Origin: Desulfovibrio sp.
GTDB taxonomy: Bacteria > Desulfobacterota > Desulfovibrionia > Desulfovibrionales > Desulfovibrionaceae
DNA: 32,437 nucleotides
Reading direction: 5' to 3'
Assembly: GCA_031291035.1 (NCBI GenBank)
Contig: JAISLI010000019.1
Location: forward strand, 1-32,437
Under the pieces are notes generated by a model. The model ran no database searches, had not been told where the DNA came from, and saw only the letters and a program-made list of their open reading frames with translations. Below, piece after piece: positions 2,409 to 17,279 of the stretch. Position 1 is the first letter of the stretch. Every line of letters starts with the position of its first letter. The position numbers and the translations under genes are program-made.

Positions 2409-3285
2409 TCCGGCCGCGCGAAATCCCGTGTGGCGCGTATCCGGCGGGCGTATTCCCGCTCCGTCCGCGCCTTTCGGCGTCATGGGCATTGTCAACCTGA
2501 CGCCCGACTCTTTTTATGACGGCGGACGCCATGCCTCAACAGGGGCAGGACTGGCTCGGGCGTTGCGCCTTTACGGCGACGGCGCCGATATTGTCGATTT
2601 TGGCGCCGAGACCACAAAACCGGGTTCCGGGGCTCTCTCCCCGGAGGAAGAGCAGGCGCGTCTTCTGCCGGCGCTCCGCGCCGCGCGCGAGGCGGCCCCG
2701 GACATGACCGTTTCCGTGGATACGTATCACGCGGAAACCGCGGCGGCCGCCCTTGATCTTGGCGCGGCCGTCATCAACGACGTTTCGGCCTGTTCCTTTG
2801 ACCCCGGTCTCACGGATGTGCTTGTTCAGCACAAGCCGGGATATGTGCTCATGCACCACAAGGGCCGGCCGAAGACCATGCAGGACAGGCCCCGGTATGA
2901 TGACGTCCGCCGCGAGGTCGCGTTTTTTTTTGAACGGGAGATGGCGCGTCTTGTCAGGGCCGGCCTTCCCGAGGACCGCATCGCCCTTGACCCCGGTATC
3001 GGATTCGGCAAAACCTGCGCGCACAATGTGGAACTTCTGGCTCACTCCGGAGATTGGCTTTCCTTCGGCAGGCCGGTGCTTCTGGGCATCTCCATGAAAT
3101 CCCTGTTCGGCGATCTGCTTGGCCTGCCGGCGGCTGACCGCGGCATTGCCACCCAGGTCGCGACGGCCCTGCTCTGGAGCGGCGGCATCTTCTGGCATCG
3201 TGTGCACGATGTGGCCGCGACGCGTCGAAGCCTTGCCCTTGCCGCCGCGCTGCGGCCCAAACAGTGCGGGAGCGCGGATGTTTGA
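2401..3285 (+). CDS. folP: Dihydropteroate synthase
   Basis: FolP condenses 6-hydroxymethyl-7,8-dihydropterin pyrophosphate with p-aminobenzoate to dihydropteroate in folate synthesis; it is the sulfonamide target. The 294-residue protein shows the first family motif MGIVNLTPDSF (28-38), the second loop around DFGAETTKPG (66-75), and later DPGIGFGKT and the C-terminal RVHDV motif. Loop 2 reads ETTKPG where ESTRPG is more usual, a conservative Ser-to-Thr and Arg-to-Lys change. The ATG at 2401 lies inside the end of ftsH (8-base overlap), which implies translational coupling. The frame extends further upstream inside ftsH but has no better start. It overlaps cdaA by 8 bases in the same way. Confidence 0.95.
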   Translation: MPDPAARNPVWRVSGGRIPAPSAPFGVMGIVNLTPDSFYDGGRHASTGAGLARALRLYGDGADIVDFGAETTKPGSGALSPEEEQARLLPALRAAREAAPDMTVSVDTYHAETAAAALDLGAAVINDVSACSFDPGLTDVLVQHKPGYVLMHHKGRPKTMQDRPRYDDVRREVAFFFEREMARLVRAGLPEDRIALDPGIGFGKTCAHNVELLAHSGDWLSFGRPVLLGISMKSLFGDLLGLPAADRGIATQVATALLWSGGIFWHRVHDVAATRRSLALAAALRPKQCGSADV

Positions 3286-4012
3286 GGGGTTCCCCGTAAC
3301 CTGGAGGGATTTGCTGGACATAGCGTTCGTGAGCGCGCTGTTGTATCAGCTTATCCAGCTTTTGCGCGGCACGCGCGCGCTGGCCGTGCTGACCGGCCTC
3401 GGGATTCTGACGGTACTCTACTACATGTCCATGCATCTGGGTCTGAATACGTTGTTCTGGCTGCTGCAGCATATTTTCAGTTCCCTGTTCATTGTCATAG
3501 TAATTCTGTTTCAGTCCGACATCCGGCAGGCTCTCGGGGAAATCGGGGCGCGCAGAATATTCAGCCGGAACAGGCTCAAACAGAGCGGCATAGAAGAAGT
3601 CGTCATGGCCTGCCAGGAAATGGCAAGACTTCGTGTCGGCGCGCTGATTGTCATCGAGCGCGGCATGCGCCTCGGAGACATGGTGGCGCGCGAAGGCGTG
3701 CGAATCGACGCGCTGCTCTCGCGGCGTCTGCTCATGAATATTTTTCATCCCAAGGCGCCCCTGCACGACGGCGCGGTCATCATCAGCGCCGGGCGCATCA
3801 TGGCCGCCGCCTGCATCCTGCCTTTGGCCACGGCGAACGGGCAGAGCTTCGGCACGCGCCATCGCGCGGCCATGGGCATTACCGGCGAGAGCGACGCCGT
3901 GGCAATTGTTGTTTCAGAAGAGCGCGGAGAAATGACCCTGGCCCTTCGGGGCGTTTTGACGCTTGTTCCGGATGCCGCGCGTCTAAGGCAGGATCTCCAT
4001 GAAATTTTCTAG
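3278..4012 (+). CDS. cdaA: Diadenylate cyclase CdaA (c-di-AMP synthase, DAC domain)
   Basis: CdaA makes cyclic di-AMP from two ATP at the inner membrane. The 244-residue protein has three N-terminal membrane helices (roughly residues 13-30, 33-51 and 57-79) followed by the DAC domain. Its two hallmark motifs are intact: DGA at 164-166 (in LHDGAVII) and RHR at 194-196 (in GTRHRAAMGI). It is therefore expected to be active. The ATG at 3278 overlaps the folP stop by 8 bases. The next genes are ybbR and glmM, the same cdaA-cdaR-glmM order known from Firmicutes, where YbbR/CdaR and GlmM bind and modulate the cyclase. c-di-AMP usually controls potassium and osmolyte balance and cell-wall homeostasis; the targets here are not in the window. 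Confidence 0.95.
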   Translation: MFEGFPVTWRDLLDIAFVSALLYQLIQLLRGTRALAVLTGLGILTVLYYMSMHLGLNTLFWLLQHIFSSLFIVIVILFQSDIRQALGEIGARRIFSRNRLKQSGIEEVVMACQEMARLRVGALIVIERGMRLGDMVAREGVRIDALLSRRLLMNIFHPKAPLHDGAVIISAGRIMAAACILPLATANGQSFGTRHRAAMGITGESDAVAIVVSEERGEMTLALRGVLTLVPDAARLRQDLHEIF

Positions 4013-4967: not shown

Positions 4968-6320
4968 ATGTCTGAACGTTTTTTCGGTACGGACGGTCTG
5001 CGCGGCGCGGTGAACGTCTATCCCATGACCGTGGATGTGGCCCTGCGCCTGGGCATAGCGGCCGGGGTACGCTTCAGGCGCGGAACGCACTTGCATAAGG
5101 TCGTGATCGGCAAGGATACGCGGCTTTCCGGCTATATGTTCGAGTCCGCGCTGACGGCGGGGCTATGCGCCGCCGGTATGCACGTCATCATGACAGGCCC
5201 CTTGCCCACGCCCGCCATTTCTTTTCTCACGCGCAGCATGCGGGCTGACCTCGGGGTGGTGATTTCCGCCTCGCACAATCCTTTTTATGACAACGGCATC
5301 AAGTTTTTCGACGCCGACGGTTACAAGCTGCCGGATCAGATCGAAAATGAAATTTCCGGGATGGTGCTTGACGCGGACATGGCATGGCCCTATCCCGACA
5401 CGCGGCGTATAGGGCGGGCCACAAAAATAGAGGATGCCGGCGGCCGTTATATTGTCTATACCAAAAGCTCCTTCCCCGCGCATCTTACCCTTGCCGGCCT
5501 GCGTATTGTTGTGGACTGCGCCAACGGCGCGGCCTACAAGGTCGCGCCCCTGGCCCTGGAGGAGCTTGGGGCCGAGGTGATACGCGTCGGCACGAGTCCC
5601 AGCGGGCTCAACATCAACGAACATTGCGGCTCGCTGCATCCCGAAGTGACGGCGGCCAAAGTGCGCGAGGTGCGCGCCGATGTGGGCCTGGCCCTGGACG
5701 GCGACGCTGACAGGCTGATAGTGGCGGATGAAAACGGCGCCATTCTGGACGGCGATCAGTTGATGGCCATGTGCGCGCAGTCCATGATGGAACGCGGCGA
5801 GTTGCCGGGCAATCTGCTGGTGGCCACAGTCATGAGCAACATGGCCCTGGAGATTTTCATGACCGCTCGCGGAGGACGGCTTTTGCGCACATGTGTCGGA
5901 GATCGCCATGTGGTCGAGGCCATGCGGCGGAAGGACGCCATGCTCGGCGGCGAGCAGTCCGGCCATCTTGTTTTCAGGCGCTACAGCACAACGGGCGACG
6001 GGATTTTGGCCGCGTTGCAGATTCTGCGCATTATGCGCGAGAAGGAAAAGCCGCTTTCCGAACTCGCCGGTCTTTTGACGCTCTTTCCGCAAAAACTTGT
6101 AAACGTGCGCGTGGAAAAACGTCTGCCCTTTGAGGAACGCCCGGCCATCGGAAAGGCCGTGGCGCGGATCGAAGAGGCTCTCGCCGGACGCGGCAGAGTG
6201 CTTTTGCGCTATTCCGGCACGGAAGCCTTGTGCCGCATCATGGTGGAAGGGGAAGACGAGGACAAAGTCAGGACGTATGCCGCTGAACTGGCCGAGGTTG
6301 TGGCCGGAGAATTGCAGTGA
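4968..6320 (+). CDS. glmM: Phosphoglucosamine mutase
   Basis: GlmM interconverts glucosamine-6-phosphate and glucosamine-1-phosphate for UDP-GlcNAc, the precursor of peptidoglycan and lipopolysaccharide. The 450-residue protein is full length. The phosphoserine loop ISASHNP places the catalytic serine at residue 102. The metal loop is DGDADR (244-249), and the C-terminal phosphate-binding loop is RYSGTE. AAGGAG lies just before ATG 4968, and the gap from ybbR is 18 bases. It ends the cda-type operon. In other bacteria GlmM binds CdaA and inhibits it, so the operon may form one regulatory unit. Confidence 0.97.
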
Positions 6321-6377
6321 GACATCTGTTTCTTGCCCCGAAAATCCAGCGTGAGATATAGAGATATAACTCGCCGG

Positions 6378-6453
6378 GGGATGGCTTGAATTGCTTTTTT
6401 CATTGATGTAACATAGGGATGGCTTGAATTGCTTTTTTCATTGATGTAACATA
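6378..6453 (+). repeat. Perfect tandem duplication of a 38-bp unit
   Basis: Copy 1 is 6378-6415 and copy 2 is 6416-6453; they are identical base for base. The unit starts GGGATGGCTTG and ends GATGTAACATA. It lies in the 230-base gap between glmM and the type I secretion operon. No third copy is visible. Perfect identity suggests a recent duplication or ongoing copy-number change. Confidence 0.97.
6386..6452 (+). promoter_or_regulatory. Putative duplicated promoter of the type I secretion operon
   Basis: Each 38-bp repeat contains TTGAAT, a 17-base spacer and TAACAT. The positions are 6386-6391/6409-6414 in copy 1 and 6424-6429/6447-6452 in copy 2. Both hexamers match the sigma70 consensus at four of six positions with ideal spacing. 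The second copy would start transcription near 6460, about 90 bases before the ABC transporter start. The spacer holds a run of six T. The promoter role is inferred from spacing and position only. Confidence 0.45.
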
Positions 6454-6550
6454 CGGTGCAGTCGTGTATTTGCGGCAACACCCGAAGCCGCTCCGTATGC
6501 CGGCGGCTGCGTGTTTTGCGTAAGAGTTACATACCACTTCTGGAAGTTAC

Positions 6551-8854
6551 ATGGAAAGAATCAGTCCGACGCCTTCCAATGGTACTCTTTCTGAAGCGCC
6601 CCAAGGGGAAAAATCTCCCGTCCCCGGCGACACTGCCGCGCCGGTCTCTTCCCCTCCGGCTGAAGCGGGCAAGTCCACAGGGCCTTTGCGGCCTTCAGAT
6701 GTGGACTTCATGCCCGGCCTTTTGCGAAGTCTGGCTGTTTTGCTGCGCTTGCGCGGCAAGATTGTTTCGCCGCAGTTTCTTATGGCGAGCCTCACCGGCA
6801 GCAATATCACACCCCAGGCATGTCTGCGGGCAGCGCGAAAAGCGGGACTGTCCGGCCGGATTGTTTACAAGCCCGTCCTGGAGGACATCCCTGCGCCGGT
6901 TCTGCCCTGCATTTTGCTGCTCACCAGGGATCGCTGCTGCGTGCTCACTGCCGTCAGAGGGAATTCGGCGGAAGTCATTTTTCCGGAAACAAACGAAACG
7001 GCACAGGTCGTGCCTCTTGAAACCATCAAGGCCGATTATTCCGGCTATGCGCTCTTTGCCTCCGTACAGGCGGCTCCCGACGAGCGCGCGGAAAAACTCG
7101 TGCTCTCCAAAGGAAAGCGCTGGTTTTGGGATGTACTGCGTTATTATGCTCCCATTTATCGGCATGTGGCCCTGGCCAGTGTGGTGATCAACCTGATTGC
7201 CGTAGCCAGCCCTCTTTTTACCATGAATGTTTATGACCGCATTGTGCCCAACGGGGTTGCCGCTCTTGATTCACTGTGGGTGCTGGCATCGGGCATATCC
7301 ATAATCTATCTGTTCAACTTTTTGCTTTCGTCGCTGCGCACTCATTTTGTTGACGTCGCGGGGCGCAACGCGGATATTGTGCTTTCAAGCACCCTCGTCG
7401 AAAAGGTGCTTTCCATGCGTCTTGACGCCAAGCCTGAATCCACCGGCGCGCTGGTCAACAATCTCCGCGAATTTGAACAACTGCGTGAATTTTTCAGCTC
7501 ATCCAGTTTGCTCGCATGCATCGACCTGCCTTTCCTGATTATTTTTCTTCTGCTCATAGTCTTTATCGGAGGACCGCTGGTATTTCTGCCAATCGCCGCC
7601 ATCCCCCTGCTTGTCGGAGTGGGGATATTTTTGCAGCATCGGTCCAAACAGTGCGCGGAGACGAGTTACAAGCAGAATATGCAAAAAAATGCCCTGCTTG
7701 TTGAAATTGTCGCCGGACTGGAAACATTGAAATCCTGCATGGCCGAAAGTCGTATGCAGCGCCTCTGGGAATCCGTGGTGGGCCTTTCGGCGAAGTCAAA
7801 CAGCGAGGCCCGCAAATACAACAACCTGGCCATCACGGCATCCATGCTGATTACGCAAATCGTCACCGTGGGCATGATTGTGTGGGGCGTATACCGCATC
7901 AACGACGGCGACATGACAATGGGCGCCCTTATCGGCGCCAATATCCTTGTCGGCCGGACCATGGCCCCGCTCCTGCAGATGGCTTCCCTGCTCACACGCA
8001 TACAAAATTCGCAAGTGACGCTGAAAGCGCTTGACATACTTATGGAATTGCCTTCAGAAAATCAGGTGGAGCGGAGCTGCATGGATTTTGGAATGCTGCG
8101 TCCGTCGTTTACTCTGGAAGGCGTTTCATTTGCCTATCCCGGCTCCGAGAGGCTGGCGCTTGACCGCGTTTCAGTACACATAGAACAGGGTGAGCGCGTC
8201 GGCGTGATCGGCCCCATGGGTTCCGGAAAAAGCACGCTCTCCCGGTTGCTGATAGGCCTTTACCAACCCAGGGAAGGAGCCGTCAAATTCGGCGATGTGG
8301 ATATTCGCCAGATACCCAGTTCGGATTTGCGCGGGCGCGTCGGTGTTCTGCCGCAGGATATTACCCTGTTTTACGGCAGCATCAGGGACAATATCGCCCT
8401 TGGAGATCCCACCATCAATGACCATCTGGTTCTGCGCGCCGCGGCGCTGGCCGGAGTTACCGATTTTTTGCGCAATAACCCTGCCGGTTTCGCCGCGCAG
8501 GTCGGCGAGCAGGGCAAGGCGCTTTCCGGAGGCCAGCGGCAGTCCGTGGCGTTGGCCCGCGCCCTGGTGCGTGATCCGGAGGCGCTGATTCTGGATGAAC
8601 CCACGAGCAATATGGATACCGATTCGGAACTCATGCTGCAAAAGCGTTTACAGACCATTATGGAAGGCAGAACCGTTGTGCTTGTCACCCACCGGCTTTC
8701 CATGCTGCGTATCGTGGAGCGCCTGATTGTCATGGAGAACGGACAAATCAAAATGGACGGGCCGCGTGACAAGGTTTTGCAACGCCTTCGCGAGCGTTCC
8801 AGACAAAGTATGGCCGCGGTGGGGGCCGCGGCCCCGAAACCCCCGGGAAATTGA
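6551..8854 (+). CDS. Type I secretion system permease/ATPase (LapB/RtxB-like ABC exporter)
   Basis: This inner-membrane ABC exporter powers one-step secretion of a large protein substrate through a HlyD-type adaptor and a TolC-type channel. The protein is 767 residues. A Pro/Ser-rich leader (1-45) is followed by a C39-peptidase-like domain (about 48-175) without a recognisable catalytic Cys/His pair, so it is probably a docking rather than a cleaving domain. A six-helix membrane domain (about 195-500) and an ATPase domain follow. The ATPase shows Walker A GPMGSGKST (554-562), signature LSGGQ (658-662), Walker B ending LDEP (681-684) and an H-loop THRLS. All ATPase motifs are intact. It opens an operon with the adaptor gene 3 bases downstream. 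The tolC-like gene at 15849-17279 is the likely third component. No secreted substrate gene is in the window. Confidence 0.93.
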   Translation: MERISPTPSNGTLSEAPQGEKSPVPGDTAAPVSSPPAEAGKSTGPLRPSDVDFMPGLLRSLAVLLRLRGKIVSPQFLMASLTGSNITPQACLRAARKAGLSGRIVYKPVLEDIPAPVLPCILLLTRDRCCVLTAVRGNSAEVIFPETNETAQVVPLETIKADYSGYALFASVQAAPDERAEKLVLSKGKRWFWDVLRYYAPIYRHVALASVVINLIAVASPLFTMNVYDRIVPNGVAALDSLWVLASGISIIYLFNFLLSSLRTHFVDVAGRNADIVLSSTLVEKVLSMRLDAKPESTGALVNNLREFEQLREFFSSSSLLACIDLPFLIIFLLLIVFIGGPLVFLPIAAIPLLVGVGIFLQHRSKQCAETSYKQNMQKNALLVEIVAGLETLKSCMAESRMQRLWESVVGLSAKSNSEARKYNNLAITASMLITQIVTVGMIVWGVYRINDGDMTMGALIGANILVGRTMAPLLQMASLLTRIQNSQVTLKALDILMELPSENQVERSCMDFGMLRPSFTLEGVSFAYPGSERLALDRVSVHIEQGERVGVIGPMGSGKSTLSRLLIGLYQPREGAVKFGDVDIRQIPSSDLRGRVGVLPQDITLFYGSIRDNIALGDPTINDHLVLRAAALAGVTDFLRNNPAGFAAQVGEQGKALSGGQRQSVALARALVRDPEALILDEPTSNMDTDSELMLQKRLQTIMEGRTVVLVTHRLSMLRIVERLIVMENGQIKMDGPRDKVLQRLRERSRQSMAAVGAAAPKPPGN

Positions 8855-8857
8855 TAT

Positions 8858-10717
8858 ATGGACCTGACTTCCAGAAAAAACCGGACTTCCGCCGTACTTG
8901 CTCCAGGCCAGGGAGCCATGCCGCTTTTCGAGCAGCGATCAGCCCGGAGTGACGCAAAAGGGCCCGATATCGCCAAAGACGACAATGAATTGCCCAGTAT
9001 GCCGGGTATGCCGGGGGACGGCATAAATCAATTTTTCGCGGCCATGCTGGACAAAAAGCGTAATCCCAATGACCCGGATGTGTCCGTCTCCCCGGAGCAA
9101 CCCGACCAGTTTGATATGCGTCCCCTCGGTGCGGCGTCTGACAAAGAAAAAAAAGAGGACGGCGGACCATGGCTTTTTTTGCGGGATATGATTTTTGGCG
9201 GCGGGCATGAGCAAAAGCCGGACAGAAATTTTTTGCAGTCTGTAAGAAGCGTCCTTGGCCATCGCAAGCAGGATCAGGCCGCGTCCGGCGGCAAGCCGGC
9301 GGGGCCGTCGGGCGCGGCCGGCATGTTCGCGGCCATGGATGCGCCGCTGCGTGGCCTTACGCCTGACGACGTTCAGTTTGCCGGCGAGGTGGACGCGGCC
9401 CTTGCGCGCCGTCCGCGCTTTGGCGTGCGCACTCTTTCCGTGACGGTGGCGGTGATGCTTTTGCTGCTGATCATCTGGGCGGCTTTCGCGGAGATTGATG
9501 AAGTTACCCACGCCGAAGGACAGGTGGTAGGCTCGCAACGCACACAGACCATACAAAACCTGGAAGGCGGCATTTTGCGCGCGGTGCTTGTGCGTGAAGG
9601 GCAGATTGTGGAGAAGGGCGATATCCTTGCCCAGCTTGACAATGAAATGGCGGAAAGTTCCTATCGTGACGCCACGAACAAGGCAATAGAAAACAGCCTT
9701 GCCACCATGCGTCTCGAAAGCGAACTCAAAAACCAGCGGCCGGTTTACCCCGCGGATTTGAAGGCATGGGCCGGTCGGCTTATCGGACAATCCGTGGACG
9801 AAAACACAGTAAACCGGGCTCGCCAGATTGTGGACGACCAGGAAAATGCCTGGGTATCGCGTCAGGAAAGACTTAATGCGGAACTTGATGTGCTGAAGGC
9901 CCAGTATGAACAGCGGCAGCATGACCTGGGAGAGCAGATCGCAAGGAAAAATCAGCTTGACCGCAGTCTGGCCATTTCCATTGAACAGCGCGATACGGCG
10001 TATTCACTTCTCCTGCGGAACAACTTCTCCCGCATGGAATATCTGGGTCTGCAGCAGAAGGTCGTGGAATTGCAGGGACAGATAGACATGCTTGCGGCAA
10101 GCATCCCCAAAGCCCAGGCGGCCGCGGACGAGTTTGTGCAACGTATCGCTTCCCGCAGGGCGGAGCAGAATACGGCCATTACCGATGAGATAAACAAACG
10201 CCGTCAGGAACTGAACTCCCTGCGCGAAACGCTTTCAGCGGGCGGTGACCGTGTTACGCGGACCGAATTGCGCACGCCCGTGCGCGGCACGGTAAAACAG
10301 ATATATATCAATACGGTTGGCGGCGTTGTGAAGCCCGGCGAACCCATTATGGACATTGTGCCCCTTGACAACACCCTGCTTGTGGAAGCCAGGGTATTGC
10401 CCAAGGATGTGGCCTTTTTGCGTCCCGGACAGGAGGTGATGGTTAAAATTTCCGCCTATGATTTTTCCATCTATGGCGGACTTGAAGGAAAACTTGAATC
10501 CATCAGCGCGGACACCATTGAAGACAAGAGGGGCAACTATCACTATCTGGTAAAAGTGCGCACGCAAAAAACATCCATCATCTACCACAACGAAGTGCTG
10601 CCCATCATCCCCGGCATGATGGTGACCACGGATATTATGATCGGCAAGAAGTCGGTGCTTGACTATTTACTCAAACCGATACTTAAAGCCAAGCAAAATG
10701 CCCTCAGGGAACGTTGA
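8858..10717 (+). CDS. HlyD-family type I secretion membrane fusion protein with long cytoplasmic extension
   Basis: This periplasmic adaptor links the ABC exporter to the outer membrane channel. The protein is 619 residues, against roughly 400-470 for many family members. The excess is an N-terminal cytoplasmic region of about 190 residues. It is rich in Pro, Gly, Asp and Lys, low in predicted structure, and ends in a segment resembling the usual start of the family. One membrane helix follows (193-212, with an LLLLIIW core). The periplasmic part has a split lipoyl/barrel-sandwich motif (around NLEGGI and later RTPVRG), a long alpha-helical hairpin and a C-terminal beta domain. It starts 3 bases after the exporter stop with a weak ribosome site, which suggests coupling. 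Its stop overlaps the upstream-most possible start of the next gene. Confidence 0.92.
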   Translation: MDLTSRKNRTSAVLAPGQGAMPLFEQRSARSDAKGPDIAKDDNELPSMPGMPGDGINQFFAAMLDKKRNPNDPDVSVSPEQPDQFDMRPLGAASDKEKKEDGGPWLFLRDMIFGGGHEQKPDRNFLQSVRSVLGHRKQDQAASGGKPAGPSGAAGMFAAMDAPLRGLTPDDVQFAGEVDAALARRPRFGVRTLSVTVAVMLLLLIIWAAFAEIDEVTHAEGQVVGSQRTQTIQNLEGGILRAVLVREGQIVEKGDILAQLDNEMAESSYRDATNKAIENSLATMRLESELKNQRPVYPADLKAWAGRLIGQSVDENTVNRARQIVDDQENAWVSRQERLNAELDVLKAQYEQRQHDLGEQIARKNQLDRSLAISIEQRDTAYSLLLRNNFSRMEYLGLQQKVVELQGQIDMLAASIPKAQAAADEFVQRIASRRAEQNTAITDEINKRRQELNSLRETLSAGGDRVTRTELRTPVRGTVKQIYINTVGGVVKPGEPIMDIVPLDNTLLVEARVLPKDVAFLRPGQEVMVKISAYDFSIYGGLEGKLESISADTIEDKRGNYHYLVKVRTQKTSIIYHNEVLPIIPGMMVTTDIMIGKKSVLDYLLKPILKAKQNALRER

Positions 10718-10734
10718 GCGGACCGCAAGGAAAC

Positions 10735-12885
10735 ATGATGGCACAAGATTCAACACATAAGCGACATTCCAGGCGCGGTCGCGTTGCTTTTGCGCTTCTC
10801 GCGCTGCTGGCCCTGGTGGGGGCAGGCGTTGTCACAGCGGCAAATTTTGTTCTGGACGCAAGCAGAGAGCGCATTTACAGAGAAACCGAACAGGGGTTGA
10901 AGTCCCGTGCCGCGAGTACTGTCGCAAATCTCACTGTATGGTCCGGACGCTTGAAGGGCCAGGTGGAAATGTTCACTTCTCTTGACATGTTGCGCCTTTT
11001 TGCCGCGGAGGTTGACAATGCGGGCATTTCCGCCGGGGAGTTGCGTCGTTTGACCACGGAACAGAGTGCGGATTTCCCGCTTCCTCCGGAAGAGGAGGCC
11101 CCCGACGGAGTTTCCGACGAACGCAGGCCGGGCGCGACAGAGCCCATTCTGTCGCGCTTGCCCGTGATACTCAGCCAGTTGAAGGACTTTGCGGCAAAAA
11201 ACGCCTGTCTGAATGTCTGTTTGTTGAACAGACAGATGGATGCCTACATCTCCCTTTCGGGCGCGACGGATTTGTCAAGGGAAGAGAAAGAGTTGCTGTC
11301 GCCTGTAATTGACAACAAAACGCCGGTGTTTTTGCCCGCGCGACTGCATGAGGGCGTTTTGCTGATGGATATGGTTTTCCCCATACGGGCGCCGTTGTAC
11401 TTTTCCCCCAGCGAGCATGTTGTTGCCGCTTTGCTTGTTACTTGCGATGTCGCGCAAGTACTCAGAAACGCCACCCGTCCCGGTGTGGAAAAGGGGATCT
11501 TCAATTCGTGCGTCATACAGGCGCGGGGCGAACACCCGCAGATAATTGCCGAAACGACCGGCGGACCACAGCTGATAACCCTGCCTCCAGACTGGCGCCT
11601 GGAGGCCGGCCGTGGTCTGCCTCTCAAATTGCGTAAAATGCCCGCCGCGTCAGGCAAGGAGTATCAGGCGTATTCCATCGCCTTGCCGGTTCCCGGTTTG
11701 ATCTGGTATGCGGCGGAAATGATGGACGCCGGCAAAATTGAAAAGGATTATGCCGATTTTCGCCGCAATGTGATTATTATCGGCGCCCTGTTGGTGTCTC
11801 TTGCCGCCATTGTTCTTGTAGCCCTCTGGTGGTGGGCTTTGGGGCGCCGCGAGCGCGCCATCGCCGATAAAATGCGTTATCTCTACCAAATAGTCAACCA
11901 GCAGAAGCAGATCATGGACGGCGTGAATTCCGCCCTTTCCGCCGGTATTATCCTCAATGACCTGAATGGCGTCATATATTACGCCAACCAGAGTTATGCG
12001 CAAATGACAGGGTTGAGCCAGACGGATTTGACCGGCCTTTCTTACAAAAACCTGAATGCGGATATGGCCAGAAGTCTTGTTACGCATACCCAGGCCGTAT
12101 ATCAATCAAAAAAAATGGCGAGTTTTACGGAAGTGCTGCCAATCAATGGAGCGGCACGGCATTTTCTTACTTCCTGCTCGCCTTTCTGCGGTGAAAACGG
12201 TGTAATTCTGGGCGTTGTCTCCGTCTATAACGACATCATGGATCTGGTTATGGCGCAACGGCGCGCGCAGCACATGATCACCCAGACTGTGGCCGTTTTT
12301 GTGCGCGCCATTGAGGCGGTGGACCCCTACCTGTGCGGGCAGTCTTCGTTCACCGCCAAACTGGCCGTCGCGCTGGCGCGTTATCTGGAGAAAAACGACG
12401 ATGCGACGCTGGCGACATTGCGCACGGCGGCGAGTCTTTCGCAGATTGGCATGATCCAGTTGCCGAGGGATTTGCTGAACAAATCCGAGAAACTGAATGA
12501 TGAAGAGCGCGCCCTGTTGAAAAAGCATGTGGAATACGCGCGCAAGGTTCTTGAAGGAATAGAATTCGGCATTCCCGTGCTGGAAACCATCGTTCAGATG
12601 TACGAACGTATAGACGGTTCGGGGTATCCCGCCGGCCTGAAGGACGAGCAAATATCCCTGAACGCGAAAATTCTTGCGGTGGCAAACACGTTTTGCGCCC
12701 TGATGCGGCCGCGCTCCTACCGTTCGGCCCTGGACGCGCAGCAGGCGATAAATGTATTCACCACAAAGCCTTACAAGTATGATTTAAAAGTAGTGCAGGC
12801 GCTTATCGAGTTTCTCAAGTCAGAACAGGGAGGGGTTTTCCTGAAGACGCTTCTTTCCGGCGAATTGACAGACTCGGAATCATAG
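10735..12885 (+). CDS. Membrane PAS sensor with degenerate HD-GYP domain
   Basis: The protein is 716 residues. Helix 1 (17-36) and helix 2 (345-369) flank a periplasmic sensor region of about 300 residues. A PAS domain (about 395-505) and an HD-GYP-like domain (about 520-690) follow. HD-GYP enzymes normally degrade c-di-GMP using conserved metal ligands. Here the GHS histidine is Gln536, the HD pair is Ser569-Gln570, the following IGK lysine is Met573, and the HHE motif reads Met622-Tyr623-Glu624. His598 and the DGSGYP motif (627-632) remain. It is therefore probably catalytically dead and acts by binding or signalling. Position in the type I secretion operon suggests control of export, by analogy with LapD. 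I chose ATG 10735 (ATG 10738 is equally possible) because AAGG at 10727-10730 precedes it. Confidence 0.85.
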   Translation: MMAQDSTHKRHSRRGRVAFALLALLALVGAGVVTAANFVLDASRERIYRETEQGLKSRAASTVANLTVWSGRLKGQVEMFTSLDMLRLFAAEVDNAGISAGELRRLTTEQSADFPLPPEEEAPDGVSDERRPGATEPILSRLPVILSQLKDFAAKNACLNVCLLNRQMDAYISLSGATDLSREEKELLSPVIDNKTPVFLPARLHEGVLLMDMVFPIRAPLYFSPSEHVVAALLVTCDVAQVLRNATRPGVEKGIFNSCVIQARGEHPQIIAETTGGPQLITLPPDWRLEAGRGLPLKLRKMPAASGKEYQAYSIALPVPGLIWYAAEMMDAGKIEKDYADFRRNVIIIGALLVSLAAIVLVALWWWALGRRERAIADKMRYLYQIVNQQKQIMDGVNSALSAGIILNDLNGVIYYANQSYAQMTGLSQTDLTGLSYKNLNADMARSLVTHTQAVYQSKKMASFTEVLPINGAARHFLTSCSPFCGENGVILGVVSVYNDIMDLVMAQRRAQHMITQTVAVFVRAIEAVDPYLCGQSSFTAKLAVALARYLEKNDDATLATLRTAASLSQIGMIQLPRDLLNKSEKLNDEERALLKKHVEYARKVLEGIEFGIPVLETIVQMYERIDGSGYPAGLKDEQISLNAKILAVANTFCALMRPRSYRSALDAQQAINVFTTKPYKYDLKVVQALIEFLKSEQGGVFLKTLLSGELTDSES

Positions 12886-12903
12886 CCTGTTTTTGGAGGA
12901 TAC

Positions 12904-14181
12904 ATGCGCATTCTTTTTCTGCACAAAACCTTTCCGGGATCGTTTCGGCTTTTGGTCCATGCCTTTGGCGTACAGCCCGAAAACACCATTCTTTTCCTTT
13001 CGGAAACCGGCCAGAAATCAGCGCGGACGAATGTCCGCCGCCTGCGTCTTGCGCCGCCGCTGAAGCACATAACGCGGGATTCGGTTGAGAATGATCTGGT
13101 TCAGCGATACAGACGCGCCGCCAGAGCGGGCAATGCCTTGCTGCTCCTGAGCAAGGACGGTTATGAACCTGATCTGATTTGCGCTTCATCTTCCATGCCC
13201 GGTTCCCTGTTTGTCCGGGACGTTTTTCCAAACGCTTTTTACGCGATAGAGGCGGACTGGTTTTATAGGCGTGGCCAACAGACCTTTTTCAACCATGATA
13301 TTACCCCCGCCGAATTCGCGCCCGCCAGAATACGCAATCTCTGGGAATATAACGCACTGGGAGACTGCGACTTCGCCTTTACTTCGTCAGTATGGCAAAA
13401 ATCGCACTACCCGGATTTTCTGGACAAAAAACTTCATGTAATCCATCACGGGATCAATACCGCCTTTTTTTCATCCGTCCCTGAATTCTTTGTTGACGAG
13501 ACAACGCATCTAAAGCTCGCAAATACCGCTGAAATTGTCAGTTTTTCCGGTCCGTACCAGGATCCGTCACGAGGTTTTTCCCAATTTTTGCAGGCTGTTC
13601 CCCAAATATTGAGCAAAAGGCCCAATTGCCATATTATCATGCTCTGGCCGGATCGTCGCAGCAAGCCGCGGCAGGGCGGGGAAACCATACGCCGGGAGGA
13701 AACGGAGAAATACCGCCAGTTGCTCGCGGACGTTCCCCTGTCCGACAAGGCGCGTTCGCGCTTACATCTGCTTGGCGTGCGTCCGATCAGCAAGTATCGT
13801 CAGATGCTGCGGGCTTCAACCGTTCACGTGTACCTGACGGCCCCCCATGCTTTGTCCACAGGCTTTCTGGAAGCCATGGCCTGCGGCGCTCTTGTGGTTG
13901 GTTCGGACACGGCCCCGGTAAAAGAAGTTCTGGAGCACGGCAAAAACGGTTTTTTGTGCGATTATGCGGAGCCCGGAGCCATTGCCGAAACTGTGGCAGG
14001 CGTGCTTAATCTGGCGCCGAAACTGACCTTCATACGTGAAGCGGCCAAGCAGATAGTGGCGCAGGAATACAATGCCGCGCTGCAGACGGAGCGTCTTGTT
14101 GCTCCTTTGCGCGAAGGCGTTTTAAAAAAAAGGCGGAACATTGCCCAGGCAAGGCGGCCGCCGCTTTTCAGATTTCACTGA
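12904..14181 (+). CDS. Glycosyltransferase family 4 protein
   Basis: The 425-residue protein has the two-domain GT-B layout of group 1 (GT4) glycosyltransferases. The N-terminal acceptor domain begins MRILFLHK. The C-terminal nucleotide-sugar domain contains HHGINT, the segment STGFLEAMACGALVVGS and a downstream VKEVLEHGKNGFLC, which together supply the family's E-x7-E-type donor site. No membrane segment is seen, so it acts in the cytoplasm. TGGAGG precedes ATG 12904, and the gap from the sensor gene is 18 bases, so it belongs to the type I secretion operon. It might glycosylate the secreted protein or act on surface polysaccharide; the sequence cannot decide. Its last 14 bases overlap the end of the convergent RNase J gene. 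Confidence 0.85.
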   Translation: MRILFLHKTFPGSFRLLVHAFGVQPENTILFLSETGQKSARTNVRRLRLAPPLKHITRDSVENDLVQRYRRAARAGNALLLLSKDGYEPDLICASSSMPGSLFVRDVFPNAFYAIEADWFYRRGQQTFFNHDITPAEFAPARIRNLWEYNALGDCDFAFTSSVWQKSHYPDFLDKKLHVIHHGINTAFFSSVPEFFVDETTHLKLANTAEIVSFSGPYQDPSRGFSQFLQAVPQILSKRPNCHIIMLWPDRRSKPRQGGETIRREETEKYRQLLADVPLSDKARSRLHLLGVRPISKYRQMLRASTVHVYLTAPHALSTGFLEAMACGALVVGSDTAPVKEVLEHGKNGFLCDYAEPGAIAETVAGVLNLAPKLTFIREAAKQIVAQEYNAALQTERLVAPLREGVLKKRRNIAQARRPPLFRFH

Positions 14182-15832
14182 TTATTGCGACAACCACAGG
14201 ATCGCGTTCCAAAACGCGCTTGAAGAATTTTCGCAATGTGGATCGAATGTTCTCGCGCAATCGTTGCGTGTTCCCGTATGCTGTCTCTATTTCATCCAAT
14301 ACCAGGCATTTCGCGTCTTCCAGAACGTAACTGTAACTGTAGTGTTGTTCGAAAATAAAGCCTTTGGAAGTGATTTCAGGTCCGTGGATTATATTGCCCG
14401 TGGCGGAATCCATCACCAGCACTACAATAACCATTCCCTCGCCGCCCAAAATACGCCGTTCCCTGAGTACGGCGACGCCGACATCTCCAACGCCTTTGCC
14501 GTCTACCAGAGTATGCTTGACCATCTTGCGCGCTTCGACCCGGAAGGATGTTCGCGTGAGAGTCAGCGGTCTGCCATCCTCCAGAATCACGATATTTTCC
14601 GGGGCGACACCGCAGGACTGGGCAAGACGGCCATGTTTCACAAGATGCTGGTATTCGCCGTGTACAGGTACGAAAATCCGGGGCCTGACGGCCAGAAGCA
14701 TATCGCGCAACTCCTCGCTGTGGGCGTGACCCGACGCGTGAACGGCGTCAATGTCTTCATAAATCACTTCCGCGCCGAGGCGGTACATTTCATTGACAAG
14801 ACGTGAAATCGCCCTGGCATTGCCCGGAATCATGCGTGAACTCATGACGACGGTGTCGCCCTGCCGTATGTCGAGTTGACGATGACCGCCCAGCACCATG
14901 CGGGAGAGGGAGGAGAGCGGCTCTCCCTGAGCTCCCGTGACAAGAAGCACGAGTTTGTGGTTCGGCAGATTCGGCGTCCCGTTGTTCGCATTGAAAAAAA
15001 CGGAAGGAAGATTCAGGAGTTTGAGTCCGCAGGCCGTCTCTATGTTGTTGGCCAGAGATTTGCCGCTTATCACCACGGTTCGTCCGTGTTCTTCCGCAAG
15101 ATCGAATACCTCCTGAATCCGCTGAATATGGCTGGAAAAAAGCGTGATTATGATGCGCCCGGCCGCTGTATCAAAAAGTCTGCCGAGCGATTTCTTGACT
15201 TCACGTTCCGTAAGCGACCGGCCGGGACGCATGACATTGGTCGAGTCGGAAAAGAGCAGACGGGCGCCCTCCGGGCCGGCGAAATTTTTGAAAATTTGTA
15301 CATCCGTGCCGGGGCCGCTTAACGGGTGGGGGTCAATTTTGAAGTCTCCGCTGTGTACAATCCGGCCTGCCGGGGTTTCCACGCCAAGCCCAAAGCCTTC
15401 GGGGATGGAGTGACAGACGGGCAGGAAGTGAAAATCCATATCCGCCAGATTCAGCACCGTATCGGCAGTAACCGGGCAGAGCGTCACCCAGCGCAGTATT
15501 TCGCGCTCGCGAAGTTTCTGCTCCACAAAGGCCAAAGTCAGGCCAGAACCGTAAATGCGGGTTCCTTTGTTAAGCTCCCGGACGAGCCAGGGAAGGGCGC
15601 CGATATGATCCTCATGACCATGCGTCAGCACGATGCCGGAAAGCTTGTCTTTTACGCGGCTGACGGCATCGAACGAAGGAATGACTACATCCACTCCAAG
15701 GTGCCCGTCGTCGGGGAACATCAGGCCGCAGTCCAGCATGACGGCGCCGTGGGCCGTTTCCCAAAGCTGGCAGTTGAGCCCTATTTCCCCAAGGCCGCCA
15801 AGAGGGATGATGGTGAGCTCCCGGGAATTCAT
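14168..15832 (-). CDS. rnj: Ribonuclease J
   Basis: RNase J is a metallo-beta-lactamase/beta-CASP nuclease with 5'-to-3' exonuclease and endonuclease activity in mRNA decay and rRNA processing. The protein is 554 residues, the usual length. The metal-binding motif HGHEDHIG lies at residues 71-78. The N-terminus IIPLGGLGEIG is typical. Other beta-CASP motifs follow (VHSGDFK, FSDSTN, VHASGHAH and a PVHGE motif). I chose ATG 15832; the open frame extends another 25 codons into the tolC-like gene but the resulting sequence is unlike the family. It starts 16 bases after the tolC-like stop, so the two are probably co-transcribed. It converges on the glycosyltransferase gene with a 14-base overlap and no obvious terminator. 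Confidence 0.96.
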   Translation of the reverse strand: MNSRELTIIPLGGLGEIGLNCQLWETAHGAVMLDCGLMFPDDGHLGVDVVIPSFDAVSRVKDKLSGIVLTHGHEDHIGALPWLVRELNKGTRIYGSGLTLAFVEQKLREREILRWVTLCPVTADTVLNLADMDFHFLPVCHSIPEGFGLGVETPAGRIVHSGDFKIDPHPLSGPGTDVQIFKNFAGPEGARLLFSDSTNVMRPGRSLTEREVKKSLGRLFDTAAGRIIITLFSSHIQRIQEVFDLAEEHGRTVVISGKSLANNIETACGLKLLNLPSVFFNANNGTPNLPNHKLVLLVTGAQGEPLSSLSRMVLGGHRQLDIRQGDTVVMSSRMIPGNARAISRLVNEMYRLGAEVIYEDIDAVHASGHAHSEELRDMLLAVRPRIFVPVHGEYQHLVKHGRLAQSCGVAPENIVILEDGRPLTLTRTSFRVEARKMVKHTLVDGKGVGDVGVAVLRERRILGGEGMVIVVLVMDSATGNIIHGPEITSKGFIFEQHYSYSYVLEDAKCLVLDEIETAYGNTQRLRENIRSTLRKFFKRVLERDPVVVAIISEI

Positions 15833-15848: not shown

Positions 15849-17279
15849 TTATTGCGCCTGCAAAAGATCGGCGTGAAATTCGCCCATGGCGACATATATC
15901 TGGGCAAGCGCCGTCAAATAGTCCGCCTTGGCGCCGGTAAGGGACGCCTGCGCGGTGGTGAGCTTTGTGGATGCGTCCAATACTTCAAAATTGGTGCCCA
16001 CTTGTTCCCTGTACCGGGCCAACGCCGCGTTAAAGGCTTCCGTCGCCTGTTCAACGCTTTTCTCCGCAAGGGCAATACGCTTTTCGGCTTCACGCACGGC
16101 AAGCAGTTTCGATTTGACGTCATAGCCAACGCCGAGTTTCAGGTTCTCCTCTTCATAGCGCATTTTTGTCACAAGCCAGCCGGCCTGCTTGTCGGCATAC
16201 CAGGTGGTTCCCCACTGAAACACATTCCAGACGGCCCGCGCGCCGATTTCCCAATTTGTGCCGCGTGACCCGCCTTCGCCGGCGCGTTGCAGCCCGGGGG
16301 TATTGCCGGTATTGGTGACGTTGTAGTAGGCCTCCACCTGCGGATAATAATCGCTTTGCGCGGCGAGTTGGTTTTTATCGGCGATTTCCACCGCCCTGGC
16401 CGCTATATAGAGGTCAGCCCGCTGGCGGTAAGCCGTTTCAAGACACATCTCCAGCGGACGTTTGAAGGGGATATAGGCCAATTTTCCCACATAGGCGGTT
16501 TTCGCCGTTGCCGGCAGTCCGAGCAGGGTGTTGAGCATGGCCAGACATGTGTCGCGGCTGTTTTCAGCTTGAACCAGCAGATTTTCCGCCTGGCTGACGT
16601 TGACTTCCGCCTGTAGGACATCAAGACGCGGCCGGAGGCCGACATCGTGGAAGGCCTTTGTTATGTTGAGCTGGTCGCGCAGTCTGGCAAGAGAATCGCG
16701 TTCGCTTATGACGTTTTCCTCGCGTCTCAGATAGTCCAGGAAGTAACGCTGCACCTGTTCCGTCATATCCAGTTCGGCCTTGCGCAAGGTGGCCTTGTCG
16801 CTGTCCGCCTGCAAGGCCGCTTTCCGGTAATCCGCCAGAAGTTTGAAGCCCTGGAAAACAGGCTGGGAAATCTCGACGCCGAAGTTGTACATACCCATTT
16901 CCGGGGGGCGCGTGGTGACAGGCGATGATTCCCGCTCTTGCCTCACGGCGGTATAGCTCATGCCGAGGCGGGGGCCGAAGGCTCCGCGGGCCGCCTTGCG
17001 TCCCTCTTCCGAAGAACGGCTTTGCGACTCCTGGGAACCGAGGGACGGATTGAATTTAAGGGCGCGGGATACGGCCTCGCCCATGGTAAAGGACCGGGGA
17101 AGCCCATGCCGTTCGTTTTGCGGATCCAGGGGCCGTCCGCCGCCATACAGCGGCGAGGGCGGCGATTTTTTTGAAGCCGCAAACGCCATGACGCGGGGTG
17201 AGAGCAGCCCGCAGGCGCAGTATAGCGCAATCAGGACGAGCGCCATCCGGGTACGCCGCAGAAAAATTTGTCTGGACAT
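15849..17279 (-). CDS. TolC-family outer membrane channel, probable partner of the type I secretion system
   Basis: TolC-type proteins form the trimeric outer membrane and periplasmic tunnel for type I secretion and efflux. The 476-residue protein has a signal peptide (about 1-33, core MALVLIALYCACGLL, ending VMAFA). Two structural repeats of long amphipathic helices and short strands follow, beginning MGEAVSRALKFNPSL and including the barrel strand NFGVEISQPVFQGFK. Length and architecture fit the TIGR01844-type subgroup that partners type I exporters. I chose ATG 17279 for the signal peptide; the long open frame upstream is non-homologous. A TATAAT on the minus strand (17331-17336) is a possible -10 box but lacks a good -35. 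Nearness to the exporter operon supports a shared machine, though it is on the other strand with RNase J. Confidence 0.9.
   Translation of the reverse strand: MSRQIFLRRTRMALVLIALYCACGLLSPRVMAFAASKKSPPSPLYGGGRPLDPQNERHGLPRSFTMGEAVSRALKFNPSLGSQESQSRSSEEGRKAARGAFGPRLGMSYTAVRQERESSPVTTRPPEMGMYNFGVEISQPVFQGFKLLADYRKAALQADSDKATLRKAELDMTEQVQRYFLDYLRREENVISERDSLARLRDQLNITKAFHDVGLRPRLDVLQAEVNVSQAENLLVQAENSRDTCLAMLNTLLGLPATAKTAYVGKLAYIPFKRPLEMCLETAYRQRADLYIAARAVEIADKNQLAAQSDYYPQVEAYYNVTNTGNTPGLQRAGEGGSRGTNWEIGARAVWNVFQWGTTWYADKQAGWLVTKMRYEEENLKLGVGYDVKSKLLAVREAEKRIALAEKSVEQATEAFNAALARYREQVGTNFEVLDASTKLTTAQASLTGAKADYLTALAQIYVAMGEFHADLLQAQ

Follow-up and report, generated by a model that had tools for sequence, protein, structure and literature searches.

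A DvhD-type receptor with a degenerate HD-GYP domain in a Desulfovibrio type I secretion operon and a second receptor beside the protease gene

A 32,437-nucleotide stretch of DNA from Desulfovibrio sp. (GenBank assembly GCA_031291035.1, contig JAISLI010000019.1, positions 1 to 32,437; this whole stretch is the window in what follows) carries, at 10735..12885 of the plus strand, the gene of a 716-residue protein directly behind the genes of a type I secretion exporter. Judged by its sequence, this protein is a full-length homologue of DvhD/BfsD (DVU1020), a receptor built on a dead HD-GYP domain that binds cyclic di-GMP (c-di-GMP; Kd ~99 nM) without hydrolysing it and controls the LapG-type protease DvhG (PMC13090378; PMC11784015). 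Across much of the genus, the DvhD-DvhG module departs from a simple pairing of receptor and protease: genomes carry two receptors alongside a single protease and a single exporter, encoded by unlinked genes, and we consider it probable that a DvhD-type receptor restrains DvhG in these bacteria and that the two receptors share one protease and one exporter. The core idea, i.e., a dead HD-GYP receptor controlling an adhesin protease, has been published, and it is the two-receptor arrangement that is new. A literature search confined to main texts and, for the most part, to openly available papers found no paper on paired DvhD receptors, and the main text of PMC13090378, as distinct from its supplements, makes no mention of a duplicated, paralogous or heterodimeric DvhD.

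A DvhD-type receptor with replaced metal ligands

Searching the Protein Data Bank (PDB) with phmmer gave seven matches to the window receptor, led by 9RC0 (DvhD PAS/HD-GYP; E 1.1e-61) and 9RBZ (HD-GYP with c-di-GMP; E 1.5e-48) and including further HD-GYP proteins, while 9RC2 (the DvhD periplasmic dCache domain; E 2.3e-7) was the sole PDB match to the periplasmic part. Entries 9RC0, 9RBZ, and 9RC2 also occupied ranks 1-6 when Foldseek was run with an AlphaFold2 model of the receptor (26-row alignment; mean predicted local distance difference test score, pLDDT, 81; predicted template modelling score, pTM, 0.46). The model is laid out as a transmembrane (TM) helix continuous with alpha1 (residues 8-81), a periplasmic domain, a second long TM helix, a PAS domain, and the HD-GYP domain, all encoded on the plus strand. 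The periplasmic dCache-like domain (residues 84-331; 10984..11727) reaches a target-normalised TM-score of 0.81 against 9RC2, and its helix 84-96 may correspond by position to alpha1' of DvhD, the helix proposed, from a model, to contact DvhG (PMC13090378). The PAS domain (about residues 385-501; 11887..12237) is matched by PAS_4 with E 4.1e-11 at 400-501, within the stretch where Pfam places PAS folds (~400-501), and the degenerate HD-GYP domain (residues 502-705; 12238..12849) by HD_5 with E 6.1e-42 at 521-685; in Foldseek, its identity to 9RBZ with bound c-di-GMP is 45%. Pfam, the AlphaFold2 model, and the 9RC2 match thus agree with an earlier note on this DNA, made from the sequence alone, that had placed a periplasmic sensor region and a PAS domain ahead of the HD-GYP domain.

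That note had also read the metal ligands of the domain as replaced, and alignment to 5z7c bears this out: GQS stands for GHS (Q536 for the histidine; 12340..12342), SQIGM for HDIGK (S569-Q570-I-G-M573; 12439..12453), and MY for HH (M622-Y623; 12598..12603), with H598 and the DGSGYP motif (residues 627-632; 12613..12630) retained. The counterpart of Y631 of this motif in DvhD is Y621, which contacts a phosphate of c-di-GMP. The replacements are fixed in kind over 29 window-type homologues, i.e., receptors of the same type (one, in another metagenome-assembled genome or MAG, L041, is 83% identical to the window receptor; L, G, and C numbers denote our loci, genomes, and contigs): S569 is present in 28/29, Gln or His at 570 in 29/29, M573 in 29/29, M622 in 28/29, and H598 in 29/29, with Gln for the GHS histidine in 25 of them. 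Hence close homologues are degenerate too, where intact ligands would have spoken against the note's proposal.

The fold remains that of the catalytic HD-GYP phosphodiesterases PmGH (4MDZ/4MCW), PA4781 (4R8Z), and V-cGAP3 (5Z7C), in which the metal ligands replaced here are present. Full or partial phosphodiesterase activity through other ligands might be imagined from the retained H598 and GYP motif and from the His at position 570 in 7/29 window-type receptors, but we regard it as very improbable: DvhD itself, with SQ for HD and M-N for HH at the equivalent positions, showed no hydrolysis with any of the ions tested (PMC13090378), and the window type has lost still more, the GHS histidine being mostly Gln and the IGK lysine Met throughout.

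The window receptor therefore shares with DvhD of Desulfovibrio (Nitratidesulfovibrio) vulgaris Hildenborough the dCache-PAS-HD-GYP architecture, the replacement of HD by SQ and of the first H of HH by M, most residues of the c-di-GMP site, and linkage to a LapB/LapC-type exporter, and it differs in having no DvhG between membrane fusion protein (MFP) and receptor, in the second DvhD of its genome, and in having lost the GHS histidine and the IGK lysine as well. Its identity to Nitratidesulfovibrio relatives (L064, L065) is 31-32%. LapD of Pseudomonas fluorescens is expected to be alike in its dead c-di-GMP enzyme domain, inside-out signalling, and control of a LapG-type protease and adhesin retention, but has a LapD/MoxY-HAMP-GGDEF-EAL architecture, whereas a Pfam scan of the window receptor matched PAS and HD families and no GGDEF or EAL. 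The suggestion that this protein is an independent solution to LapD's problem holds insofar as it would work like LapD without being one; as a new proposal it falls, having been published already for DvhD. The same applies to the idea of a converted enzyme that reads c-di-GMP, which is very probably right, by homology to DvhD, and not new. PMC13090378 and PMC11784015 also refer to a reconstitution study by Karbelkar et al. The unusual PAS/HD gene had already been remarked on in 2017 (PMC5646257).

For c-di-GMP binding, we mapped the 12 site residues named in PMC13090378 by alignment on 109 receptors, comprising 29 of the window type, 67 canonical ones, and 13 of the D38 type, i.e., protease-linked DvhD paralogues, named for the copy on contig C38 of the window genome. 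Seven of the 12 tracked residues (DvhD Y523, L577, Y621, R650, Y652, R653, and the bridging P567) are identical in 29/29 window-type receptors, and K582 is Arg in all of them. The retained set includes every residue altered in the DvhD mutants R650A, Y652A/R653A, and P567T, whose c-di-GMP response was impaired (PMC13090378), and we infer that the window receptor binds c-di-GMP. E668, K520, and R569 are not kept in the window type, and all three vary among canonical receptors too.

Position 668 contacts the base in DvhD and is Lys in the window receptor, and it varies across the window clade, which could hint at a receptor for another nucleotide such as 3'3'-cyclic GMP-AMP (3'3'-cGAMP) or c-di-AMP; DvhD also binds 3'3'-cGAMP (Kd ~0.5 uM; PMC13090378), and a CdaA-type diadenylate cyclase is encoded in the window at 3119-4012. 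However, 668 is variable in the canonical group as well, DvhD prefers c-di-GMP ~5-fold and binds c-di-AMP too weakly to quantify (PMC13090378), and cdaA belongs to an ftsH-folP-cdaA-ybbR-glmM run, immediately ahead of the exporter genes, with no tie to the receptor shown. We accordingly think a switch of nucleotide improbable.

The protease and a second receptor outside the exporter operon

The gene of the LssB/LapB-type type I secretion ABC (ATP-binding cassette) exporter (6551..8854, plus strand; TIGR03375 864.2 bits, cut-off 693.1) is followed after 3 bp by that of the HlyD/LapC-type MFP (8858..10717, plus strand; TIGR01843 370.1 bits, cut-off 208.65), and this, after 17 bp, by the receptor gene, so that the earlier placement of the receptor inside a type I secretion operon is correct. 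The arrangement recurs: the MFP gene is directly upstream of the receptor in 28/28 testable window-type loci (29 rows), where a lack of conserved linkage would have counted against the note's proposal. The window ABC is the sole TIGR03375 match over cut-off in its genome (G000). Exactly one LssB-type exporter over cut-off occurs in 10/10 genomes, the one in G000 being the window's own, and the window ABC has a single match at E 1e-100 in 14/14.

What sets the window type apart is the protease. Our locus set consists of 78 named loci from the best 80 of 115 matches to the 26-row alignment query, plus loci of further genomes. Canonical operons have the order ABC-MFP-DvhG-DvhD, and the gene immediately preceding the receptor is LapG in 64/64 testable canonical loci (62 scored automatically; L093 and L109 corrected, their frames running back into LapG; flanks too short in 3/67). 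Window-type loci have no LapG between MFP and receptor (0/26 testable loci of the 29 rows), and in the D38 type LapG is directly upstream of the receptor in 13/13 rows.

The earlier note saw no LapG homologue in the window; a genome-wide search likewise gave zero matches on the window's contig, but the same genome has two elsewhere. One (C38:43784) immediately precedes a second gene of DvhD type, and the other (C1:47403) stands alone. The C38 LapG, aligned with its family, has C, H, and D where the triad of these proteases lies. The C1 LapG-like protease (L009:7140-7796) has 218 residues and lies near an S-adenosylhomocysteine hydrolase gene. The C38 DvhD paralogue has the same domains as the window receptor, with 29% identity over 697 alignment columns, but adjoins LapG and not an exporter and has lost a different set of c-di-GMP-site residues; its predicted fold, made without an alignment, had a mean pLDDT of 35.5 and was not used.

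A survey of 55 genomes of the genus, related to one another so that their counts are not independent trials, showed how general this is. A clear window-type receptor (match >300 bits) was found in 31/55 genomes and LapG in 41/55, including all 31. LapG lies outside the window-type operon in 31/31, on another contig or >500 kb away in 28 and within 10 kb, divergently oriented, in three (G111, G112, G137), as in D. piger ATCC 29098 (L061). A second DvhD stands beside LapG in all 31 (25 by coordinates, six in fetched DNA, one of these cut by a contig end). One of the 31 window-type receptor genes, that of G138, contains an in-frame TAG. The search for window-type receptors came up empty in the 14 LapG-negative genomes of the genus, and ten LapG-positive ones have no window-type match above 300 bits, six of which carry a D38-type receptor beside LapG (G117, G118, G119, G120, G135, G139). 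The 300-bit threshold misses some exporter-linked receptors, because a strongly diverged one exists in G108, directly behind ABC-MFP on contig C3 (L244:5642-7700; only the PAS/HD-GYP part matched), and another diverged receptor, without context, in G120. LapG genes with no nearby receptor match were seen at L240, L242, L247, and L249 (G101, G108, G145, G146), that of G146 on a short contig. In wider stretches, an exporter was found near the LapG/DvhD pair in G085, G095, G005, and G010.

The receptor tree held 68 of the 109 receptors (41 omitted for size, eight window-type and 33 canonical), and its window-type rows formed one clade (Shimodaira-Hasegawa-like approximate likelihood ratio test, SH-aLRT, 99), with a single sequence as sister, that of Candidatus Bilophila faecipullorum, which still has LapG in its operon; a second tree of 33 rows agreed with this sister relation (100/99). 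The D38 rows formed a separate clade (support 100). A single clade of window and D38 types excluding Bilophila was rejected by the approximately unbiased (AU) test (p 0.002), with long branches present. The ABC, MFP, and LapG trees (26, 27, and 27 rows; 28 genomes) could each be reconciled with a single inherited set in every genome, with several forks unsettled and the branch joining Bilophila in the LapG tree having 88/79 support only. Reciprocal loss from two complete operons, suggested by the split of exporter and protease between two loci of the window genome, is not the simplest account, since these three trees fit one inherited set; on this comparison of sequences, the receptor is doubled and the exporter and protease are not.

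The substrates of the system are present as well. Searches with the LapA retention family NF033682 found no adhesin in any of the seven genomes searched, and RTX repeats (PF00353) marked giant proteins in relatives and matched none in the window genome. Five giant RTX proteins of four relatives begin with a shared ~95-residue domain followed by PAAG, and DvhG cleaves between the alanines of a PAAG-like motif (PMC13090378). A retention-domain alignment (A2) built from these relatives and then used for genome searches found two frames in the window genome, C34:14284 (3608 codons) and C10:21065 (822 codons), each with retention domain and PAAG, so that the Dvh/Bfs set is complete there: DvhG, a LapB-type exporter, and adhesins with retention domain and AAG site. 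Of 99 genomes of the family, 42 had LapG, 44 had DvhD-type matches, and 40 had the retention domain. The retention domain occurs in 40/42 LapG genomes (not G039 or G072) versus 0/57 LapG-negative ones, and DvhD in 41/42 (not G072) versus 3/57, the latter being weaker matches (G041, G062, G097). G072 has two LapG matches of equal score (C1:876482 and 4188936), with no DvhD at E 1e-40 and no retention domain found; perhaps LapG is put to a different use there. In G033, a single 7681-codon frame (contig C1, ~290750-313400) combines the retention domain with RTX repeats.

Two receptors and one protease

We propose that the HD-GYP domain of a DvhD-type receptor would bind c-di-GMP without cutting it, that binding would alter the stalk and TM helices so that the periplasmic dCache domain holds the LapG-type DvhG in check, and that high c-di-GMP would keep giant type I-secreted adhesins anchored because the bound receptor restrains DvhG. 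At low c-di-GMP, DvhG would cut the adhesins at the PAAG site and the cell would be released. In the window clade, DvhG appears to have gone from the exporter operon and to be encoded mostly beside the second DvhD, so that two DvhD receptors would act on one protease and one exporter, the window receptor presumably in trans. D. piger and MAGs named D. desulfuricans are among the organisms with this arrangement, and adhesin release may matter for colonisation in them.

Several observations weigh against this reading. Two site residues have changed, M646 being Leu in 27/29 window-type receptors and K520 Val or Ile in all 29, and the DvhD double mutant M646A/K520E is impaired (PMC13090378). The window-type dCache has drifted, with position 86, aromatic in 60/67 canonical receptors, being Leu in 27/29 and the canonical S83 and R79 mostly lost, changes at 86, 83, and 79 that could reflect a lost DvhG contact; positions 83 and 86 fall at the beginning of alpha1'. 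The window receptor must be dispensable for some DvhG, because a protease-linked DvhD occurs without a clear window-type partner (e.g., G010, G117, G118, G135, G139), and linkage of LapG to the second DvhD is not a fixed rule, because LapG and the D38-type receptor are separate in G101, G108, and G145.

The drift and the gene order would suit a receptor that has lost DvhG contact and through which c-di-GMP controls adhesin export, via ABC and MFP, and not release. Beyond the MFP gene upstream in 28/28 loci and LapG in 0/26, the dCache identity is lower in the window type than in the D38 type in 25/28 genome pairs, which together with the S83/F86 changes speaks for such gating. However, the window clade is sister to the Bilophila receptor beside LapG, and the ABC-MFP linkage is therefore inherited; between 25 and 29 of the 29 window-type receptors keep each of the alpha1' positions D84, R87, L88, F89, A90, and E92, so that D84, L88, F89, and E92 are largely retained; and the LapG-negative genomes of the genus yielded no window-type receptor. 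To our knowledge, neither a DvhD nor a LapD is known to act on an exporter, and we find control of export rather unlikely.

In Desulfovibrio sensu stricto, the two receptors might instead divide the labour within a hetero-oligomer through complementary degeneration of the copies, the window receptor being the c-di-GMP-sensing chain and the protease-linked DvhD the protease-holding chain. We scored domains against hidden Markov models built from canonical receptors in 14 genomes: for PAS and HD-GYP, the window type outscored the D38 type in 14/14 (HD-GYP in G001 by <1 bit), and for dCache, the D38 type outscored the window type in 10/14. The D38 type keeps R650 (13/13) and mostly Y652 (12/13), with Tyr at 523 and at 621 (the GYP tyrosine) in only 6/13 each and His at 598 in 0/13. 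Five D38 copies (L221-L225, in G122, G125, G127, G128, and G129) have lost PAS, have the DGxGYP loop replaced, and have N or T for Y652, and their window-type partners keep the window-type pattern; on the same side of the argument, the exporter-linked receptor of G108 has a dCache too diverged to match. Other D38 frames, of 954-1093 codons, have repeated middle matches (L226, L227, L228; G123, G138, G124), as if their PAS units had been multiplied.

Set against a division of labour are the four genomes with the dCache order reversed, all of them among the five PAS-less ones, and the conservation between genomes. The close relatives G000, G033, G056, and G094 have D38 HD-GYP domains of 69-93% identity versus 60-83% for the window type, and over 28 genome pairs the window-type HD-GYP is the more similar in only 19, with PAS even at 14 to 14. 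D38 copies that lack the GYP tyrosine also occur where the window type is lacking (G010, G135, G139), and the shared descent of the genomes applies to these counts too. On balance we hold a split of sensing and holding between the chains to be unlikely and prefer two DvhD receptors restraining a shared DvhG. Comparison of the copies could show which dCache face holds DvhG, from sites kept in protease-linked and drifting in exporter-linked copies, and which residues of the HD-GYP domain are required for c-di-GMP, from those kept in exporter-linked copies and lost stepwise in the other.

Neighbouring genes

The plus-strand order in the window is glmM, ABC, MFP, receptor, and glycosyltransferase, the last four spaced 3 to 18 bp apart. 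Scans of 6250-14400 returned promoter-like and terminator-like sites at chance level (seven promoter-like sites versus 4.6 in shuffles, sd 2.3; 12 terminator-like sites versus 12.0). The exporter gene of D. piger ATCC 29098 (L061:5981-8151) is in two abutting pieces in different frames, by frameshift or sequencing error. The family 4 glycosyltransferase gene (12904..14181, plus strand; Glyco_trans_4_3 E 3.2e-29) is the last of the co-directional run. A family 4 glycosyltransferase gene lies downstream of the receptor in 17/29 window-type loci, which differ in flank length, and four Pelagibius loci and one Kiloniellaceae MAG have a 29-31% relative ~1.7 kb beyond the receptor; it is possible that glycosyltransferases near the receptor act on the adhesin.

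Beyond it, on the minus strand, follow genes for RNase J and a TolC-family outer-membrane protein (15852..17144; OEP E 4.4e-58; TIGR01844 153 bits, below the cut-off of 225), which is a possible, unproven partner of the ABC exporter. A TolC-sized open reading frame (445-523 codons) precedes the exporter in 11/16 window-type loci listed, the window having none at that place, and where seen (L056, L058, L060, L061) these upstream frames have just 21-24% similarity to the window's TolC-family protein.

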